Part shown: positions 2,701 to 15,862 of the stretch, in pieces
Position numbering within the stretch: position 1 is the first letter of the stretch
Layout: the number at the start of each line of letters is the position of its first letter
Source of the DNA: Allacma fusca
Lineage: Eukaryota; Arthropoda; Collembola; Symphypleona; Sminthuridae
Assembly (NCBI GenBank): GCA_947179485.1
Contig: OX359247.1
Location: forward strand, 64,345,001-64,409,000
Direction of reading: 5' to 3'
DNA: 64,000 bases
Made by a program: the position numbers and the translations under genes
The notes under the pieces: model-generated
Told to the model about the DNA's origin: nothing
Databases searched by the model: none
The model's input: the letters and a program-made list of their open reading frames with translations, nothing else

Positions 2701-3250
2701 ACGGAAGCACAAAGAATGAGTCAGAAAACAGCTAGTTGTTGCTCCTGGAGCAGCAGAGAGAAGAGTCATTTGATCTTTTCGTCTATTTTACACTTTTGTC
2801 GTGTCAAGGGACAAGACCTTATAAGGCATTTGCATTCTCTCTAGAAATACACTTTTTTACCTACTGGAAACAAAGAATAGCTTGAGAGCGATAAATAAGA
2901 AAACTGAGGTCGGTACTCTCGGTGACATTCACATAGAATATGAAATGGTCATTTCGGCCAGTGCTCTCAATTTTACTCACTACTCGAATTTTTCATAAAA
3001 AGAATAAGTATTGAACTTACTCGTATACTCACTTCCGCGAGTTATGAGTAAGTAATTTTAAAGATGTATGATGCTTAAGTAAGTAATGAGTAAGTACGCA
3101 GACTCTAATATAATTCAAGTAATGAGTAAGTATGGGGAACTTCAACGTATCAAAAAGTATTGAGTAAGAAACCACTTCTTTACTTGAGTAGCTACCATAG
3201 AAAAAATGTTCTCCGGCAATAACAATGGCTTAATATGGCTTATGGAGGTA

Positions 3251-6200
3251 CAGTGCACTCTCGCTATAAGAGCACCGATAGAAGCACGCCAAAAGCGCTC
3301 TTATAACGGTATGCTCCTATAGAGAACATATCTCTAAATACATTAAAATACTGACTATAAATTACATAGATATACATTATTAAAAAATGGGATAAATAAG
3401 AACGTCACTGCGCAGTATATTAGATAATAAGGTAAACCAAATTTTATTTAGAAATATTATCAATTAATGTTTGTTTAGAATAAAATAATCAGTAATTTGA
3501 GCTTGCCGAAAATTCATCGCAAGGGATTTGCCTACAATATTTTCAATTGCATCCAGAGAATCCAGTAATTCAGGCTCATAGGAATCCTGGCAAACTAGCC
3601 AATGTTTAAGTTATTCCACTGAAAGCAAAGCGTCTCTGGATGTAACTTGAGGAATTACTTCTGACTCATTACTTTCTGGATCGGACTCTATATCCTCACT
3701 CTCACCATTTTCACCAAAAATACGTGAAACAATATCCTGGTCCGTTTCCATACCAGCAGTTGCGAGCTAAATGTGAAATAAATTACATATTACAAAATCA
3801 ATGCTCAAACTCTAGCACTCTAAGTTCTCAATTTTTATGAAAGGAATCAAAGCATACATCGTCATCTATAGCTTCATAGTCGGCTAATTCTTGTGGCCCG
3901 ATATTAACCCCCAAGCTGTGCATGCCTTCAAAAGCGATTTCTACTGCTGGATCCTCTACTTCAACATCTCCAGTAAACTGGGATCGCAAAGCACGCTCAA
4001 AACAATTGGAAATAGTTTGACTTGTTACCTGGAGCCATGCGGAATGTACGATTAACATTGAATCGAGTACATTTATTTTGACGGGTAAATTCCAATCCAA
4101 ACATCGAATAACTTTCTGGACCAGCTTTCTGCGATACTTCCTTTTCATTTCATTTATTATCCCCTGATCCAACGGCTGGATTACTGACGTGGCATTAGGG
4201 GGAAGATAAAGTAACTCAATGTTTGTCAACTTGACGCCTTTTGGATGTGACCCGCAGTTATCCAACAGCAAAAGGATTTTTCGCTTTTTTGCTCTCATTT
4301 GCTTATCAATTTTATTCAGCCATTCGGTAAAAATCTGAAATTAAGATCACGAGTTAAAGTAATTAAAATTGAGAGTACTTGATCTGCATAAACAATATTA
4401 AATAATTTCCCCGGTTTTCCGAATCATTTTCCCCGGATATTTAAAAATGTTATTTAGGTCAATTTATGAGGTTACATATCTCAAATAGGATTCCAAATAT
4501 AAATATTGTAAACAATTCAGTGACCCCCTTTTCAGTAAACATTTGTAAGAATTACTTTTGTCATTTTTCGTAACATATTTATATTAATTATGAAACAATC
4601 TTCAACAATTTTGAATTAGACATAAAAAAGCTATTCAAAGATTTACTTACAGACGTAACCATCCAGGCTTTCGAGTTTGCATAATAGTAAACAGGTAGCG
4701 AATCACGGGATTTGATTTTGGCAAGACACCTTGGATTTGCAAACTTCCCAATAACAAGTGGCTTCAATTTTTCAGAACCATCTTTATTACAGCACAGCAG
4801 CACTGTCAGCCTGTCTTTGCATCGCTTTCCACCACTGCATGTCTTGCCTTTAAATTCCATTGTTTTTTCCGGAAGAGCTTTAAAAAATAGGCCGGTCTCG
4901 TCAGCATTGAATATATCTTGATCCTGGTATTTTTCGGAAACCGACTTGTACACTGTATCAATCCAATTGGAAGTAACAGCCAAGTCCACCTGAGACGACT
5001 CCCCGGAGACACTTCGGAAGGAAATATTATATCGCTGCTTCCATTTTGATAGCCATCCCGAACTAGTTTTGAAGTTGTCTTTCTTCAACATCTTAGCAAA
5101 AGCGGATGCTTTTTCGAGCAAAATTGGCCCATCAATTGTAACACTACGATTTCTGAAACGACCGAGTTAAAATGGATGGTTGTTACGATTTACCTGTACC
5201 TATAGTATGTATTAAATTTATTGCTATTTAAGGTTGATAAATATACCTCTGTAATTTAAACCAGTCTAATAGTGCCAGGTCAACATCTTCAAACTGGGGC
5301 TTTCGAAGCTTTCTAGTTTTAATATTTTTGAACTTAAATTGCTCCAGTATGATTTCTCGCCTCCGCCATGTTCCTTGTATTGTCTGTCGTGGGATGTTCA
5401 GCTCGTCTGACAATTGGACCTGCGTGACTCCCTTTTGAAGGCGGTCAATTATTTTGACTTTCTCTTCAAGTGAGAGTGATTTCCGAGATTTGCTCAGCTT
5501 TTCTCCGGATTGACTCCCCATCTGAGAAATAATAAAAATTAATAAATTTCTTCAAATCATATGATTGAGTTTGTAGATCTGGAAATTCTCCCGAATTTTC
5601 CACATTTGAGTTTCAGAGCAGTGACGGGGCATTATATTATACGTAATTCAATTACATGTATCGCTTACTTTTCGGATAGTTTCCCCGAGTATTGCAGAAT
5701 AATGCAGCCAATTTAGATTTACCTAGCGTTTATCAAAATATACCATAAATGACACCGCTCTATAAATGTCTGTCTCATGACTTCTGATCCAGACATCTAA
5801 TGTCACTCACATTTTAACACAAAATTGTCAAATTAAGTAAATGCAAGTGGAATAATTATATTAAATGTAGTAGTGGTTGAAGACAAAATATTATCTGAAT
5901 AATTTGCATAGATGTGATCATTAACGTCATACTGAATAGATTGACCTGCACTACTTCAAACCAAATAAGGGACAAAGGGACAAGGCAATCGTTATCTATA
6001 CAAACGGTTAACGTCGCCAAATTATGTTTAACTGAACATGTAAAACGCACAATCACAGTAATGAAGAGTAAAAATATATATTACCGTTACAAAATTCTTA
6101 AAATATCTATTCTATCTAAATTCTATAAAATGTTCTTCCTCCAGGACTTGTCGACTTCTTGATTTCACTTATATTTACGGACCTGCTAAACAATTACTCG

Positions 6201-6630
6201 GGTCGTTCAATATTTCGTATCGTGTTGTGAGACGTTGGTCAAGTTACTCACAGTACTGTTTCTTTTCTGTATGTAGATGGAGCTTGTGCAAGGCAGACTT
6301 GCCAAGGTTATAGATGGGCATAATAACCTTTGTATCTATATGTGAGAGGTATATGCCAGTCGTCACTAACCCCAATGCATTGTGCCTACTGATGCTCACG
6401 AGGTTTTTATGCAAACGTTTCAGAAACGTTTGTGTCTGCTCGGATGCTCTTATAAAGGATTTTGTTTACAACGAGGAAGTAAAATGCCAGCTCTTACATC
6501 GAAAATGCTCTTATAAACCGTGCTCTTATATGGAACATTTACAGCCCAACAATCCTATAGGGGGGACCTGGGAGTGCTCTTATATTGAACATGCTCTTAT
6601 ACAGAGGCCTCTTATAGCGAGAGTGCACTG
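3251..6630 (-). mobile_element. Tigger/pogo DNA transposon, complete, 3.38 kb
   Basis: A perfect 22-bp terminal inverted repeat begins CAGTGCACTCTCGC at 3251-3272 and closes at 6609-6630, with a TA duplication at 3249-3250 and 6631-6632. Related CTCTTATA motifs recur just inside the right end. The element encodes one three-exon transposase on the - strand (3828-5521). TA duplication, CAGTG ends and the DDE_1/CENP-B-type protein place it in the Tigger branch of Tc1/mariner-pogo. Perfect arms and an undamaged gene suggest recent activity. Confidence 0.93.
3828..5521 (-). CDS. Tigger-type transposase (DDE_1), three exons, intact
   Basis: Exons are 5521-5247, 5152-4651 and 4334-3828; all junctions are GT-AG, phases agree, and the product is 427 aa. 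It would bind the element ends and cut and paste them in the nucleus. Residues 1-60 form a psq/CENP-B-like helix-turn-helix (SLEEKVKIIDRLQKG, then LNIPRQTIQ). A second DNA-binding part follows (GWLSKWKQRYNISFRSVSGE). The catalytic core shows three acidic motifs in order: NADETGLFF, LLLLDNCGSHPKG and QPLDQGIINEMKRKY. The C-terminus is acidic. No stop or frameshift interrupts it. It lies inside a perfect-ended element, so it is a transposon gene rather than a domesticated one. Confidence 0.9.
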
Positions 6631-6719
6631 TAGATACCACAGGCAAACAATGTTTTTTTACATTAAACGCGACGATGCAACTTGAATCGTTGACAACACT
6701 ACCGAAGATGTCAGTGACC

Positions 6720-9700
6720 CATAGATGTACATCCTCATGAGGACAGAGTGCAGCACTCGCACTCACCTCGCACTCAGTGTACTCACGAGTTTACTTTGAG
6801 GACGAGTGCATGTTATTACAACCGCGAGTACATACCACAGATAGGTTTATTAATAAGTGCGAGAACGAGAACACAATACTATAAATATATTTACTTATTT
6901 AAAAAAAATACAATACTCTGCACTCTAGTGTAACAAATGGAGCTTATTGATAGGTTTGTATATCGTTGGCTAAATTACAATAAGTACCATTTTCAAAAAA
7001 GCTAAATTTTAAAAAGTACCATATTGGCGTTTGCACTAATTCTCAAAGGTACCATTTTCATGCTTTGCGGTTAGAGTTCAAATAACTTCTGGACTTCAAA
7101 TTAAAATAGTATTTAAATTACACATGATCATGATTTCGGGAAAAAACACATGAGACTGCTAATTACTGGTGGATAGTGCATGAAGATATAAATGGAGCGT
7201 TCACCTAAAAAACAACATTGGGTAGTACGTAACAACTTGAAGTAATTCCACTTAGTGGATTGTTTTGGTAGTTTTTATTTGCAGTTATAAAAAAGTAATA
7301 AGTTATAATACATTTTAAACCCATACGAATACTTTGAGCACTATATTATACACAAACGAACATATATACACTATTTCAGTATTCGTGGCACTTAGCTTTT
7401 ATAAAAAAATAAAAACGACCCAGAAAAATACTTCTAAAAAACAGAAACTTAGTGGGGTAGATTAGAATAAAATTCTCTGCAATCACTTGGAAGGTACATT
7501 TTTAAATCCTGGAGATCGCGCCATTTTCGCTCATTGAGTTTGATTGCTTTTCCATAAATACAATCAAATGAACTCACAACTGGCAATACTTTCGCTTTCT
7601 GAGGTAATCGATCCCATTCGTCGTCGAAATGGGTTTTGAAGTATATCCAGCCCTCTGGATCATATTTCAAGGCTCGAATGTCCTTTACTTCCCGATCTCC
7701 AACTTTTGACCCTGGTCGGATGCTAGTGTATCTCTGAATAGACTTGCAGGTAAAATTTTTAAAAAAGCCATGTTGTAATTCTCTAGTTTCGTAGGGCTTC
7801 TGGGAACCCACACTTTTCCTTGCAGATTTACAAATGTGAATATAGTCACTGGGAAGACGAATGTCTACATTTTTGGACTTTCTTTCTAACTATGCACTGA
7901 ATCACATTCCATTTGTGTGTGACCCTTCTCCAAAAACGTTTGGACATTATCCTGCCAGATTCCATTGAATAATGGAGTAAAGCATTGGAGAGTGCTGCAT
8001 TTCGATTTTGATATCCACATCCATCACTGTAAATAATCACAGGAAGTGTGTCTTTCAGGTCATTCAGGTAATCAATCAAGCATGTTGCAAAAACTGAAGC
8101 ATCTAATCCGCCTTCCGTTTCGTTCCAGAAGTAACATCTGACGTCATGTGATCCGATGTCAAAGATGGTGTAATTGTAAACGTTAAGCTTAGACTTAAAA
8201 TATATACAGTTTGCGTTAAACATTGGGGCTTGCTTCACGCCTTGCAAATCCACTGTTAATACATGGTACCCATGCTTTTCGAACATCGATTTGTCAAATA
8301 ATTTTTCGGACCGAGCCCGATCTTTTTTCATTTGGTGCTTCTTGAAATCTTCAGCTGGAATTTCATTCACTTTGAATAATTCACATGTATTGCAGAGGTC
8401 TTTCTTGGGAATTGTCAAAGATAAATTTAAGCTATCAAAAGCAGATTTTAGAGATGTACAGGAGACATTGCGCTGATCTTCAGATGAGCACGTTTCTTTG
8501 TAAACTGAAAACAACTTGGCGAATGTTCCAAATACTGGTTCCAAATACAGTTTCAAACTCGAACTTCGACAATAGTGAGACTCCTGTTTCGGCAGATCAT
8601 CCAGAAATGCTTTGGCAAACATCAAGGCTTCACCGACTTGTACATTTTTGAAATAATGTTGTTTAGGGACAGGGACACCGTACTCACACACTTTACACCA
8701 ATTCTCAACCATCCTTCTCCCAATTCCAAAGGTTGACAGAAAACGTTGCCTGCAGACTCGTACACGTTTATCATCCTTTATGACAAGAAAATACTTTATA
8801 GTATTTTCCTTGATTAGATTTTCGGAGTTGGGTTTAACGACTAGTCTGACATCACACAACGATTTAATGTAAACTTTCTTCTGCCCCCAATCCATGTCAT
8901 TCCAATACGAAGTAAATAACCTGTTACGCACACTTTCAGTAACTTGGAAACATTGGATTTGTGACTTTGGAGAATTGTGGATGTTGCATTTCAATCCACA
9001 TGCACGAGCTTGCTTTGGAGGATCGTCCTGTTTAGATGACACAACCGAATCTGGAATTTGCTTTCCGCGCATTCGAAGTTCCTTCTTCTTATTACAAACC
9101 CAGGATGTGGGATCTGCTCGCTTTTTCCTTGTCTTTAGTGGTGTCTAATTAGATAGATTAAAATAATAGAGAGGCGTATAGTAATTATAAGCACTTCATA
9201 TGTTGAAAACAAGTGATAAATAATACTGTTGAGTTAAAAATTGCACCAGCTCGTTTGAAGCGGTTTCTAGAAGAGCTTCTGAATGTTTCACTGAGTTCTC
9301 AGGTCCTGTTGAAGCTGGAATATTGGCAATATAGTTAGGCTGATTTAGGTCTGAAGCAGCTAGAAATAAAAATTAAGGTTACATTAGTCAATGTTTTCTA
9401 ACTTATACATTTACGTTAATGGTTACTGCAAGCGATAAAATTAAGCAATAGAACAAATTGTATACAAACAATTATTGCAATTTTTCTTCAACTATTACCC
9501 AATCACAAAATTGGCTTAAAAATGCTAAGGTGGACAATATCACGGATGGAGACAAGTTTCGGTAATGATTTGGCAATTTTGATGATTTCACGCTCGGTTG
9601 GTACTGTTAAAAATAAAATTACAATATTATTTCCTGTCAAAACAAAATTAATAGCTATCAATTCGGATTAACTGTAGGTTAATGTTTTTTATAAAGACCA

Positions 9701-11171
9701 GTTTGTTTTAATTAAGGAGTACATTAAGAAATTGAAAGATATTTTTTCAAGACACTTGCAGTATCAGAGATATTGAAGTTTAATGATCACTTTCGTGACT
9801 ATTACTCATTTTGCCCATATTATGTGATCACTTACTATTATAAAAACTTGCTCATTGACAGCCAGCACTATTTAACTAGTATGACCCGTATCAAACTAGC
9901 TGGTCAAAATTAATTGAAAATGGAAAGTTTCTGGTTGGAATTATTAGTTACATAGGAGAGGTTACGTTTTACATCACATAACTCGGATTCTAAACGGGTA
10001 TCGTAATGTCTTTTAGATAATTTATTTACTAGTAAAACAGTGCCGTAACGGCTTACAAAATTCTGTGAATAGCTAAATTAGCTTGACAACTGCAGAAATA
10101 TTGAAAGAAAAATCTACACTAATAATAATAAATATTACCTTCATTGGCGGAAGAAGCAATGCATGTTAACTTTTCTCCTGTTTCTTCCTCATTGTGTGCT
10201 TGTAGTAAAGTCAAATTGGAGAGGCTGGGAGAATCCATGGTACTCAATACAAAACGAAATGTTGCCAAACTTTCAATGCTGTAGTGCATTAATAATATCA
10301 GTAAGTACCGAAACAACAGTATAGAAGCGAAACCAAATTTAATGCATGTACATATATGTATGACATGTGGCACGTAATGGTACCTTCTAACTGGTGAATT
10401 GTAACCGGGAAGCATATGGTACTTTTCAAAATTAAGCTCGCAGCAAAATGGTATCTTCCGTAATTTAGCCAACGATATATGGTATATACAATTTTGTACA
10501 CTTACGCAAAATAGAAACGAAACAAAATCGTTCAGTGAGTATGATTGAGAATTGCATCCGTTAATATTTCAGTTATAATAATCTTGTGTCAATCTTATGA
10601 TTTCTAAAATGAGTGAGAACAATGTAAAGCAAAAAAGTTAAAAACTATTTTTAAAATCATGGAGACTTCTTCAAATAAAAACAATCTAGGGTTAAAAGGT
10701 CTGCAATTGAAAATATTTTGTGCTACCGTGATTTTCGCACCGTTGAACTAAACCTTTATAAATAATTATTTGCAGCATTTAGCCTTTATCGTCTTCGTAG
10801 CCATTGCAAACATTTGTTATTTACTCATGTGTGTTAATCATTTCAAACTGATTATTTTCTGTTCTTAAAAATATTCCAACTTGAAAAAGCATTTGGAAAG
10901 TGATACATGTAGTTTTTTGCTTATTAACATAAAACAATTGCATGTAAAAATAAATACGAAATAAAATTATTTAAATGTATTGCAAATGGATAAGTCAGGT
11001 ATGCATACATATATACATATCAAATGCACTCATGAGTGTGATCAAATTCTAGTCTTCTGTCCTCATGAGGACAAGTGTGAGTGCAGACTAGACAATGTTT
11101 AGCATATCAGTGTGAGGATGAGCGCAGTTCATTCAATTTGTACTGAGTGCGAAAGAAAATGTGCATCTATG
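6720..11171 (-). mobile_element. 4.45-kb DNA transposon with intron-containing transposase-like gene
   Basis: CATAGATGTACAT at 6720 and, inverted at the right end near 11171, CATAGATGCACAT agree at 12 of 13 positions. They are flanked by AGTGACC at 6713-6719 and 11173-11179 (7 bp; 7 of 8 if one base is added). Both ends repeat subterminal motifs: CCTCATGAGGACA occurs near each end, and GCACTCAC or TCGCACTCAG words recur. The element carries one four-exon gene on the - strand (7449-10238). It is inserted in the 12-kb composite element. I cannot assign a superfamily; the duplication length resembles hAT. Confidence 0.8.
7449..10238 (-). pseudogene. Transposase-like protein (DUF7869-like family), four exons, frameshifted
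   Basis: Exons fit 10238-10139, 9603-9544, 9359-9247 and 9144-7449 with GT-AG sites and matching phases. The long last exon holds a Cys-rich start (CGLKCN), a segment LPKQESHYCR, and RNase H-like acidic motifs LTVDLQGVKQAP and IIYSDGCGYQNRN. It ends in FYSNLPH. The conserved stretch GHTQMECDSVHS lies near 7905 but in a different frame from the parts before and after it. One frameshift falls near 7940 and another near 7890, so this copy is dead unless the read-through differs. Proteins of this layout are widespread, poorly characterised repeat genes in invertebrates; the family name is from memory and uncertain. Confidence 0.7.
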
Positions 11172-11986
11172 GAGTGACCGTAATTTTGGTAAAAAGCATA
11201 TAAAGATCCTACTTAAATTGTATTAAAGCTAATCATGAACAGTGAAGTAACTAATTCGTGGTCTGCAAAAGAGGACAGTAATATTATTGTGGAAGAAATA
11301 GATAGGAAGCTCAAGATGTTTTGAGTGAAAACCTAGTTCAGCATCAACTGGAACTATGAAACGTCTATATTTCAAATTGATTAATATACACTAAAAAATG
11401 CGGTCAGTCCATATGCAGACTTAAATGTAAATAAACTTGGATGTACTTGATTTCATCCGGTTACCCGGAAACTATAGATTTAATTTAAGTTTGCACAGCG
11501 GGATAACTTTCCACCTGCAGTTTTTAATGCCAGCCGGAAAGTGCTTTCGTTAACATGAATTCCGGAACAAAGGAAGTACGGAATGGGTTAATCTAAGCAT
11601 AGTGTATAGATTTCAATAGTGTAGTCACTAGCATATGCAATGGTGGGACTCGCCACTTAACTTTCTCAGAGTGGCGCTGCGAGCGTTTTTCGCTAGCTTC
11701 ACAGTGATGACACATTTGAAAGCTACTAAAAACATACAAATATCAAAGTTTTTTAATGAAATTTTGGAATGTCTTGCATAGAATTCTTTATTTTTTCTCA
11801 GGTATGATTTCCAAGTATAAAAATACTTCATAAAAATATTCAGCATGAATGCATACAAATGTACATACATAAAGACTAATAGAAACTTTTGATTTTGACA
11901 CTGTTTACATTTTGTAATTGCACTGAGTATCTCACAATTCTGCGAAAATAAATGGTCATTGACGATGCAAGTTCCCGTCACAATTC

Positions 11987-12551
11987 CTAAATCTGAAAAG
12001 TAGCTCCCACGCAGATGTTCATATCATTGACTCTTTCGATTAATTTTTCCAAGTCGGTAATGGTGAGGATAATCAATCCAGAATCTTCTGTCTGTACTGT
12101 CCACACACCGGACGGGAGTTTTATAACAGAAGGGTCCGTTTTGAGTTCGCTGAATGGTGTACTCTTTAACTCCTCTTCGGATTCTATCATTTGCATTTTA
12201 ATTTCCGCGAATAACCTTTTCTTCGGGGACTTCCTTTTTCCCGGCTTGTCATAATAGGATGGCAGTTGCAGGTTTGAGAATCGAGTTGGATTTGCGTCCG
12301 GCTTCAATGTCCACCTGGATCATGATGGTAATTTCACCTTTTCAACGTTTATTTCAATAAACTCTCCACTTTTTATTATGCTGGATTTCTCGAAATGTAA
12401 ATAACAGACAGGACTTTTTGAAGTCGAAAGGAGTTTTTTTGGGGATATTTTTAAGCCATGCCAACTTATCAGCTTGTTTTGGTGCTCCGTGTGAGAGTGT
12501 TTTTGTTCTGTTATAACCCGAAGAACATCCCACAACAAAACACGACACCAT
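11987..12551 (-). pseudogene. THAP-domain protein gene, damaged
   Basis: From the ATG at 12551 the protein opens MVSCFVVGCSSGY, a THAP zinc-finger start with the first two Cys. It continues with AWLKNIPKKTPF, then VCYLHFEKSSI, which supplies the second Cys/His pair. The first and second halves lie in different frames, with a 1-nt shift at about 12413-12420. An in-frame TGA at 12320-12322 precedes a tail of about 110 residues, rich in Lys and Glu, that ends GATFQI at 11987. THAP domains bind DNA in many transposases and derived factors. This may be the DNA-binding protein of the surrounding element. Its start lies 365 bp from, and divergent to, the SAM-like gene. Confidence 0.7.
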
Positions 12552-12916
12552 TTTATTTTCTTTAAAAACTTAATTACACATTTTAATCTTAAAAACTCCA
12601 GGACTCGTAATAAAGCACATGTTGAGAACTGAAAGCCAAGCGAAAGACGCCTGAAGCGCTGTATGCGGAATGTTAAGCCAACAAGCTTCAAATTGTGCTG
12701 AGCTTATGCAGAGAGTGAGTACACTATTACAATCTATACACTATGATCTAAGTAACACATCCATGCATAAAATGATGGACCGTTAATATTTAGGCGGTTT
12801 AGCATGACAATAGAAGCCGCCATTTGTTGAGAAGTTACTCAAGTGCAGGGTAACTTAGTAGTTGTCATTTATCTGTGCTATCAAAATAACTTGAGGAATT
12901 TTCTAATCCCAATATA
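12552..12916. promoter_or_regulatory. Shared 365-bp region between divergent THAP and SAM-like genes
   Basis: The two genes of the composite element start back to back on either side of this stretch, so it must hold or overlap both promoters. I see no clear TATA box. The placement, not a motif, is the basis for the call. Confidence 0.4.
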
Positions 12917-14216
12917 ATGAGTTATACAATTGTGAATAAGATTTTGGAAGATTTGAAATTTACAGATCTCTACCAACTAAAGTTCCAAGGTAAGTACTAG
13001 TGTTGGCAGATAGTATTTAAATGATATAGGACATACATATAAACTCCACAAAAAGGTAACTATACAGACTAACTGTTATTTTAAACTGAGATGCATGTGG
13101 TTAACTTTTTGCAGATCAACATCTTTCTGACGAGGTTATGTCAATCATTTGCGACGATGAAAAATTAAAGGAAGAAATGCGACAAATCGTCCCAAGCCTT
13201 GGCCATCGCGTCAGCATTATAAATGCGTTCAAAGTCAAAACGCAGGTCACCAAGCAGGTAACTGAATGTCCATTAAAAATTGAACTAAACTGGGTATCAT
13301 TATGGACACATCTAAAACGATCACATCAAGTTAATTCCAAATGCCGTAAGTTTATTTGCCAACAACAGGAGCTGTATGTATTATTTGTTCATTTTGTGTA
13401 CAATTATTTCCTACTTCAAAAATTAGCATAACTTAATTAAATATCAATTAATTATACTTTTCTTGTACCCTTCAGATCCAATTTGATTTCAACTTATGTT
13501 ATCCACTTGTATCGGACAATCTTTCTACAAAATGGAACGAGATGGCTGTGAAGCTTTACGAATACTTTAATTCAGCAAAGAAATCTCTGCTCGTATTTGG
13601 AGTTACTGCGGATGCTACAGGTTGTATGATTTTTTGCTACTTAAGTATTGTCAATGTTATTTTAGTTGACATAATTTCTTGGACTACAACTAATGCTTTA
13701 TTTCTCTCTCAGGTTTGGATATTTCAAAGGCTGCCTTTTTATGTTAGCAGCGCTAAATCGGTCGAAAACTAAGAAAGTCACTCAGGTGGACAGCGTCAAA
13801 TCGTTTATTGAAGTAGGTAATGTGAGTATTATATTTATTCTATATGCAATTATGAATAGTTTTTGAACCTGAACAAGTTCTAAAATCCACGAATTAATTT
13901 CTTACAGCCATTGGTGGATGTCGATGCATTAGCTCATGATTGTTGCTCAAAATCTGCAAGGGTAATTTGCAAGGGTCACCTAGCAGATTTGAATCTCCAG
14001 GAATATTTTGTAATATTCGAAAACCGAGCTTTAAAAGAAGACACTTTATTGTCGGCTGTCGACCTGGCATTCAAAACTTACTACGTGTTCAACATCCCTT
14101 TTCCCCAAACCTGCGCCGGAACCTGGCAGTTTATAGATTATTACGTTTACGAAATGTGTCAGAAAGGACCATTACCCTCCATTGTGTCTGAACTTTCGGC
14201 ATTTATGACTTCTTAA
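12917..14216 (+). CDS. SAM-like domain protein carried by transposon, five exons, intact
   Basis: Exons 12917-12989, 13115-13377, 13476-13620, 13730-13821 and 13908-14216 join in frame at GT-AG sites to a 293-aa product; AATAAA follows at 14240. Residues 1-65 resemble a sterile alpha motif domain: ILEDLKFTDLYQLKF, then LSDEVMSIICDDEKL and IVPSLGHRVSIINAFK. The last exon carries a Cys/Phe-rich domain with AVDLAFKTYYVFNIPFP and WQFIDYYVYEM. That pattern occurs in 'SAM domain-containing protein 3-like' repeat genes of fish and arthropods (recalled, not searched). Its function is unknown. It sits inside the target-duplicated 12-kb element, so it is transposon cargo or transposition machinery, and all exons have stayed open while its THAP neighbour has decayed. 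Confidence 0.72.
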
Positions 14217-14940
14217 TATTTGATTCATTTTTCATTATTAATAAAAACTAACAACTGAAAACAACATTTTTCATCCTTTCAATATTCGTCATGAACGGGG
14301 CTTTTGACCTTTTTAATTAAGTATCCATGGCCACGATCGTTTCAGACCTGGAGGCATCCATAAATTCGCACATATATGAAGGTGGAGCATACCTATCTGG
14401 TATATATTCCTGCATGGATCCATACTGATTAGATAGCCTATATGTCCTTGTTTTATTCATATTACAGAAATACTCAATACTATCCCGGCTATGCAGAAAC
14501 AATCCGGGTATAACTTGTACTCATCCGGACTTATTACTGCTTGATCCGCATTGCCGGATGAAATTCATCCTGGTCATTATATGTGCTCCCTGCCTTCTTG
14601 TCCATACATACATTTTTTACCGAACATGAAGAAACTCAGCCTGGATTTTTAAGAGTGTAGGATGTGCTCGTAGAAATTTTTATCTTAAAATCTCTTAAAA
14701 CCCTGGAATAATAAATGCTCTGAATGTATGTGGATTATATTTGAAAATGAGTAATATGCAAACAAAAGTAAGTAAAGAGTAAGTAATACGCTCCGACTCG
14801 AAATTTTGAGAGAGTAATGAGTAAGTAAGATAGTTGACATGAAGCCCGTGAGTACGTAAAAAGTGAGTACTGGACAGCATGAGAGACAAAATTATGAGTA
14901 GAATAAGTAATGATGTCTAACTGAGAGCACTAATTTCGGC

Positions 14941-15189: not shown

Positions 15190-15358
15190 ATATTGGCTGA
15201 TAACTAGTCTAAGTTAGCTATCCCGGGAGGGAAACTATTTGCACTCTTTATTGATCTGGCCAGAGCTTTTGATTCCCTAAACCATGCTTGCAACAAGTTC
15301 GTTCAGCGAACTAGTTCCTGAACTGAACTTTTCAAGAATATTTAACATTTTGAGCGAA

Positions 15359-15862
15359 CTTGAATGAACGGAAATAAATTAATAGAATGAATGACTGAAC
15401 GTGAATTGAATTATTTTTCCCTTTGAATGAACGGAAATAAATTAATAGAATGAATGACTGAACGTGAATTGAATTATTTTTCCCTTTGAATGAACGGAAA
15501 TAAGTTAATAGAATGAATGACTGAACGTGAATTGAATTATTTTTCCCTTTGAATGAACGGAAATAAGTTAATAGAATGAATGACGGAACGTGAATTGAAT
15601 TATTTTTCCCTTTGAATGAACGGAAATAAATTAATAGAATGAATGACGGAACGTGAATTGAATTATTTTTCCCTTTGAATGAATGGAAATAAATTAATAG
15701 AATGAATGACGGAACGTGAATTGAATTATTTTTCCCTTTGAATGAATGGAAATAAATTAATAGAATGAGTGACTGAACGTGAATTGAATTATTTTTCCCT
15801 TTGAATGAATGGAAATAAATTAATAGAATGAGTGACTGAACGTGAATTGAATTTATTTTCAC
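15359..15862. repeat. Eight tandem copies of a 63-bp unit
   Basis: Eight adjacent copies of 63 bp contain ATTAATAGAATGAATGAC and GAACGTGAATTGAATTA and differ at only a few bases. Because 63 is divisible by 3, the - strand stays open for 176 codons as a 21-residue repeat. That frame has no start context or domain, and I treat it as a consequence of the array. The array lies in a wider region of GAACTGAACTTG words (15300-15360 and 16690-16870). Confidence 0.85.

Follow-up and report, generated by a model that had tools for sequence, protein, structure and literature searches.

Nested transposons in Allacma fusca and a SAM-like gene left by a CACTA-like element

Introduction

The window analysed here is a 64,000-nucleotide (64-kb) stretch of the genome of the springtail Allacma fusca (assembly GCA_947179485.1, contig OX359247.1, positions 64,345,001 to 64,409,000 of the forward strand), and the positions given below are those of the window unless a named copy is meant. 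Our subject is the interval 2959-14932, which a first-pass annotation described as one 12-kb transposon whose only genes encode a THAP protein and a sterile alpha motif (SAM)-like protein. It turns out to consist of transposons nested in one another and not to be a single 12-kb unit. That is, an outer element holds five insertions, here called A, B (holding C) and E (holding D); the first-pass annotation had rightly noticed younger transposons inside, but had counted two. The SAM-like gene lies in E and the THAP sequence in D.

The outer element

The outer element (2959..14932, no strand assigned) is a hAT-like, non-autonomous repeat; its ends are of the CAGTGCTCTCAATT kind and it contains GAGTAAGTA arrays. 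Three insertions interrupt it, and its own sequence, without a THAP or SAM gene, comes to about 860 bp (2959-3250, 6633-6719, 11180-11387 and 14660-14932). Features from which the 12-kb unit was originally deduced are present. A perfect 8-bp target duplication, ATTTCGGC, directly borders positions 2959 and 14932 (left copy at 2951..2958, right copy at 14933-14940, no strand assigned); the first 11 bases of the two ends, CAGTGCTCTCA and TAGTGCTCTCA, agree at 10 of 11 positions; and the five occurrences of GAGTAAGTA in the window, all on the + strand, are confined to 3046-3124 and 14777-14819. The exact 12-mer GAGTAAGTAATG does not occur in the 64 kb.

By a crude estimate from base frequencies, about 0.24 such end pairs, spaced by up to 15 kb, would be expected per 64 kb by chance, so the ends by themselves are merely suggestive. 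They are real because the left end has at least 39 other matches in the genome (80-83% identity; the best 40 of 235 candidates were scored) and because five of the six copies fetched, all except L033, have perfect 8-bp duplications of their own. The right end gives a similar list, and among the matches listed for both ends nine pairs occur elsewhere, spaced by 946-1139 bp. The six fetched copies measure 947-1140 bp, have longest stop-to-stop frames of 86-124 residues and contain no hAT transposase between their ends. As one of the two original alternatives had it, the element is non-autonomous, but it holds neither gene.

Copies of the outer element keep a 107-aa open reading frame (532-855 of copy L029), stop-free and 92-100% identical in the 16 close matches. 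Used as a query, with the best candidates alone scored, it gave 17 matches, 16 of them at 92-100% and one over 39 residues; as a route to an autonomous partner of the outer element it was set aside, having led to the 16 close copies and the one distant 39-residue match.

Cutting A, B and E out of the outer element leaves an 860-bp residue, where about 4.1 kb had been reckoned. This residue is 86.4, 86.8, 91.4 and 86.0% identical to the four short copies tried (of the six fetched), and in all four the residue flanks meet at each of the three insertion junctions, the third joining cleanly in L033 and L034 and with gaps in L029 and L032. These empty sites in other copies account for the interval without any assembly join. 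The consensus of hAT ends is of the CAGTG type. The outer element resembles hAT non-autonomous elements, of the kind called MITE-like (miniature inverted-repeat transposable element), in its 8-bp duplications, CAGTG-type ends and short multicopy repeats; it differs in that no hAT transposase lies between the ends in the copies seen.

Element E, carrier of the SAM-like gene

Insertion E (11389..14657, + strand; TA duplication at 11387-11388/14658-14659) is a CACTA/EnSpm-like internal-deletion derivative, 2.1 kb long without D. The termini are CACTG../..GAGTG in the copies listed, with CACTA at the left end in the window. In each of the 17 copies that have both ends, the window among them, the two 2-bp duplications are equal (TA in 8, CA in 5, TG in 4), and all 17 fit an end pattern that tolerated at most one substitution on the left or two on the right. 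Similar palindromes near 11450 and 14564 had been considered as the boundaries of an inner element; their alignment was weak, and comparison with the genome copies put the true ends of E at 11389 and 14657.

The SAM-like gene is real, on the + strand and in five exons, and our exon models give 253-254 aa rather than the 293 aa first proposed. Exon 1 (12917..12989) holds the start of the SAM-like domain and exon 2 (13115..13257) the remainder; exons 3-5 (13476-13620, ~13728-13821 and 13908-14215) encode the C-terminal part of the second protein discussed below, the start of exon 4 having been picked to keep the frame. Searched at the DNA level, the gene region has 31 matches; besides the window, 22 are 97-99% identical, some of them being pieces of one place. 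In 18 of 20 fetched places the left part of E is joined straight to the SAM part and the THAP block, that is D, is missing; the remaining two (L026 and L028) do not cover the site.

The mean difference among eleven copies of E (the window and L009-L018) is 1.1%. With the best splice choice, six of them (window included) read through to 254 aa, L016 gives 258 aa under another splice choice, and L012, L015, L017 and L018 are shortened or frame-shifted. Divergence is 1.12% in coding and 1.07% in non-coding sequence, and because the frame evolves like the non-coding part, the SAM and C-terminal fragment is probably a passenger in E, as judged from these sequence comparisons.

Element D and its THAP remnant

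Insertion D (11598..12745, - strand) lies inside E and is 1,148 bp long, with terminal inverted repeats CATAGTGTATAG matching at 12 of 12 positions and a 7-bp duplication, ATCTAAG. It is an exact repeat unit: 37 of the 40 matches listed (the best 40 of 84 candidates, window included) cover its full length, and for 13 of the 40 the identity is 99-100%. The many near-identical copies indicate that the D family was recently active in this genome. Eight young copies have duplications of 7 bp in seven cases and 8 bp in one.

The THAP domain scores 2e-10 in Pfam on a hand-joined frame only. The frame is interrupted in the window. Neither there nor in the eight young copies does a frame starting with ATG extend across the domain; among six older copies one does so in L045. 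With P-type/THAP transposon derivatives D shares a THAP domain remnant, the form of a short, near-identical, high-copy derivative and 7-8-bp duplications. It differs in having no transposase catalytic part; its autonomous partner was not searched for.

Longer relatives of E and their transposase

Two longer copies of E, L023 and L025, are 5.7 kb long and free of D, and contain transposase sequence that E lacks. They hold about 3.55 kb extra at the indel point, 13361 (+ strand), and the SAM protein of the window is accordingly a deletion remnant of a CACTA-like element. The transposase of the longer copies, which has C2H2 fingers, has 41 homologs, distributed over a springtail, beetles, moths, a ribbon worm and a fish, among others. 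For a beetle homolog, a RAG1/Transib-like fold is predicted together with a SAM domain, itself of the five-helix SAM fold, and in one beetle model the C-terminal part is BAH-like. RAG1 is the enzyme that assembles antibody genes in humans.

In an alignment of seven proteins, D606, D700, C720, H924, H928 and E948 (P0009 numbering) are invariant, and C723 is conserved in all except L023. A larger alignment (A3, 31 homologs) leaves all seven of these positions invariant. The catalytic residues thus form a D-D-E triad, with C(2)C and H(3)H lying between its second D and its E; in the CMCT group the pattern is C(2)C and H(3-4)H. As to the Pfam models Transposase_21 and Plavaka, a scan found no family for L023 and no transposase family for L049 (a related springtail family described below), the best values for the seven homologs scanned were 0.003-0.08, under the cut-off, and one of the 41 homologs, P0023, has a precomputed match to PF18759 (Plavaka). 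For the SAM domain, Pfam and PDB sequence searches with the springtail part gave nothing useful, and a PDB sequence search with the SAM part of P0009 returned one SAM chain at E 0.83.

The SAM gene is part of a real transposition system. The first-pass annotation, which had considered the SAM-like protein an unrecognised component of the transposition machinery, was right in kind; the protein belongs to a different, nested CACTA-like element, and in the window to a deletion derivative only.

A second protein and a proposed shared SAM exon

The 253-aa shortened SAM protein found no match at E values up to 1. A 512-aa composite, joining the SAM exons to the exons of L023 downstream of the transposase frame, matched five Allacma fusca proteins at 43-58% identity. 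In the homologs P0009, P0014 and P0035, parts corresponding to this second protein precede the transposase within one annotated protein. Within a set of 46 proteins, to which these E-values refer, the C-terminal part matched P0014 at 1e-5 and P0035 at 0.18, the middle part matched P0035 at 0.02 and P0009 at 0.1, and the SAM part matched neither P0009 nor P0014 by BLAST. As sequence support is uneven, the correspondence rests partly on order and on reading by eye. In the structure model of P0014 the C-terminal part mostly has a predicted local distance difference test (pLDDT) value below 50.

A second springtail family, L049, is 54% identical in the transposase. Its SAM exon 1 (1033-1101 of that copy) is followed by an 857-aa frame and then by the middle and C-terminal exons, and the 857-aa frame begins in SAM exon 2, crosses the fingers and continues uninterrupted into the transposase. 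In L023, too, the frame of SAM exon 2 is stop-free into the C2H2-transposase frame. L023, L049 and the window share a GT donor at one and the same phase-0 position, and in L023 and L049 the middle exon is preceded by phase-0 acceptors.

These arrangements suggest that the SAM exons could be used twice, either read through into a SAM-C2H2-transposase protein or spliced into a SAM-middle-C-terminal second protein. We tentatively propose an animal branch of RAG1-like CACTA elements in which one SAM exon would be common, by alternative splicing, to the transposase and a second protein, with SAM-SAM assembly on the element ends and interfering SAM fragments; this is a plausible scheme held at less than even confidence. 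The architectures that go with it are similarly provisional: a transposase made of a SAM domain, two C2H2 fingers, a RAG1-like DDE core and a BAH-like end, and a second protein made of the SAM domain, the middle part and the C-terminal part.

The other insertions and the neighbouring sequence

Insertion A (3251..6630, - strand) is a pogo/Tc5-type transposon with a TA duplication, a 24-bp perfect terminal inverted repeat and a transposase on the - strand. With hand-joined exons the transposase scores 6e-49 for DDE_1 and 3e-15 for HTH_Tnp_Tc5 in Pfam; the DDE_1 transposase, the Tc5/CENP-B-type helix-turn-helix and the TA duplication are those of pogo/Tigger elements. Elsewhere there are three further full-length copies at 98-99% and many short derivatives.

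Insertion B (6720..11171, no strand assigned) is a CATAGATG-ended repeat with a duplication, CAGTGACC/GAGTGACC, that agrees at 7 of 8 positions. No gene of its own was recognised, and its left arm has at least 39 other matches in the genome at 79-83%. B (6720-11171) and D (11598-12745) are alike in having CATAG at their termini and duplications about 7 bp long, and a single transposase may serve both. Insertion C (6963..10475, - strand), inside B, is a transposon with 66-bp inverted repeats at 80% and a 4-bp duplication, TATA. It has a long coding sequence on the - strand, of which the piece scanned gave no Pfam match; we take it to be possibly Sola-like.

Just right of the nest stands a reverse-transcriptase-like fragment (FIDLARAFDSLNHA, window ~15223-15318), followed at ~15350-15500 by a tandem repeat with a unit of about 63 bases by eye.

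Weighing the explanations

The nest, together with the putative mobilisation of E in trans and the double use of the SAM exons, is as a whole very probably the best explanation of the interval. An old short hAT-like non-autonomous element came first, with an 8-bp duplication; pogo-type A, CATAG-ended B (holding C) and the 2.1-kb CACTA/EnSpm-like E entered it later, and the THAP-remnant element D was then inserted into E. In E itself, a 3.55-kb deletion took out the transposase and the middle part, leaving the SAM and C-terminal fragment. Any movement of E must be in trans, as we infer from the absence of the catalytic core: full-length elements would move by CACTA/RAG1-like DDE cut-and-paste, with 2-bp duplications, and would also mobilise E. 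A reading of the outer element as one transposon, autonomous or cargo-carrying, that owns both genes is, by comparison, scarcely credible. Both genes are indeed enclosed by real ends, and the 8-bp duplication there is perfect. However, the nine end pairs elsewhere stand 0.95-1.14 kb apart, the six fetched copies are too short for either gene (with no frame above 124 residues), and at many other sites each gene is found inside a separate repeat that has termini and duplications of its own. The empty sites at all three junctions in the four copies tried refute it. Same-ended copies lacking both genes were indeed named in advance as grounds for abandoning the 12-kb unit, although the genes were then expected elsewhere as single-copy host loci, and they occur as multicopy transposons.

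Two further questions concern the SAM protein. The SAM and C-terminal protein of the 2.1-kb derivative might be a regulator that has been retained, namely a repressor arising through internal deletion that could cap or poison a SAM-bearing transposase complex. The KP protein is such a repressor for P elements, and SAM domains can polymerise. A role of this kind is possible but unsupported, and we consider it improbable. The six copies that read to 254 aa, L016 with its 258 aa, a ratio of non-synonymous to synonymous variation (pN/pS) of 0.62 in the E frame, and the fact that the SAM part is the part in common with the transposase frame are in its favour, but coding and non-coding divergence are equal, four of the eleven copies are broken, the exon-4 acceptor is odd and was picked for frame, and the 28 non-synonymous and 12 synonymous variants are close to the site ratio of 588:156. 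The other question is whether the SAM exons form a gene separate from the transposase, with the transposase starting at the C2H2 fingers and no exon shared, a serious contender that nevertheless falls short of probable in our judgement. Nine of 14 aligned homologs are annotated from the first finger, and P0009, P0014 and P0035 have the SAM protein first and the transposase after it. Against this, the SAM exon-2 frame is open into the fingers in both springtail families (the 857-aa frame of L049, and L023), and P0001, 40% identical, is annotated with extra residues before the fingers that look by eye like the end of the SAM part, a likeness that BLAST does not show.

Relation to known systems

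The CMCT group comprises EnSpm, Mirage, Chapaev, Transib and Plavaka, with RAG1 related to it, and has target duplications of 2-5 bp, according to a description of it (PMC12730594). The E family is like CACTA/EnSpm and the CMCT group in its CAC..GTG-type termini, its 2-bp duplications and its DDE triad with C(2)C and H(3)H, and its homologs are alike in their RAG1/Transib-like predicted fold. It differs by an N-terminal SAM-like part with C2H2 fingers and, in one beetle model, a BAH-like C-terminal part; moreover, the springtail protein reaches no Pfam transposase model. In maize En/Spm, TnpA and TnpD come from one transcription unit. The proposed unit of the E family would be alike in that one transcript includes or omits the transposase frame; it would differ in that the common exon encodes a SAM-like domain, and the likeness meant here is one of layout. 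According to a description of SmTRC1, the transposase part is spliced in or out both there and in maize En/Spm, SmTRC1 has alternative transcripts with and without the transposase domain, and one clone has two tandem open reading frames (PMC1636069). The same source gives SmTRC1 and related animal and fungal CACTA elements 2-bp duplications, as in the E family, and SmTRC1 termini of CCC, against CACTG here; the word 'sterile' (as in sterile alpha motif) does not occur in the main text of that paper (PMC1636069).

Our literature search, with Repbase and most subscription journals outside it, found no description of a shared-SAM-exon design in RAG1-like animal elements; the families may be catalogued in Repbase. 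It found no work joining THAP, SAM domain, DNA transposon and terminal inverted repeats, and for an EnSpm transposase with BAH and SAM domains it gave just an unrelated beetle-genome paper. Among the matches listed, the sterile alpha motif was absent from CACTA/EnSpm transposon papers, and SAMD3 was absent altogether.

Significance

A false lead, the transposon made solely of THAP and SAM genes, is removed, and the case illustrates how a nest of non-autonomous elements may be mistaken for something novel. The origin of the SAM protein has been followed to a transposase system whose fold is RAG1-like, and the shared-exon design is testable. If that design is true, transposase and accessory protein could be brought together on the element ends by SAM-SAM association, and internally deleted copies would give off a SAM fragment that can interfere. 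If a cut-and-paste transposase carries a BAH-like reader, this would point to targeting guided by chromatin.

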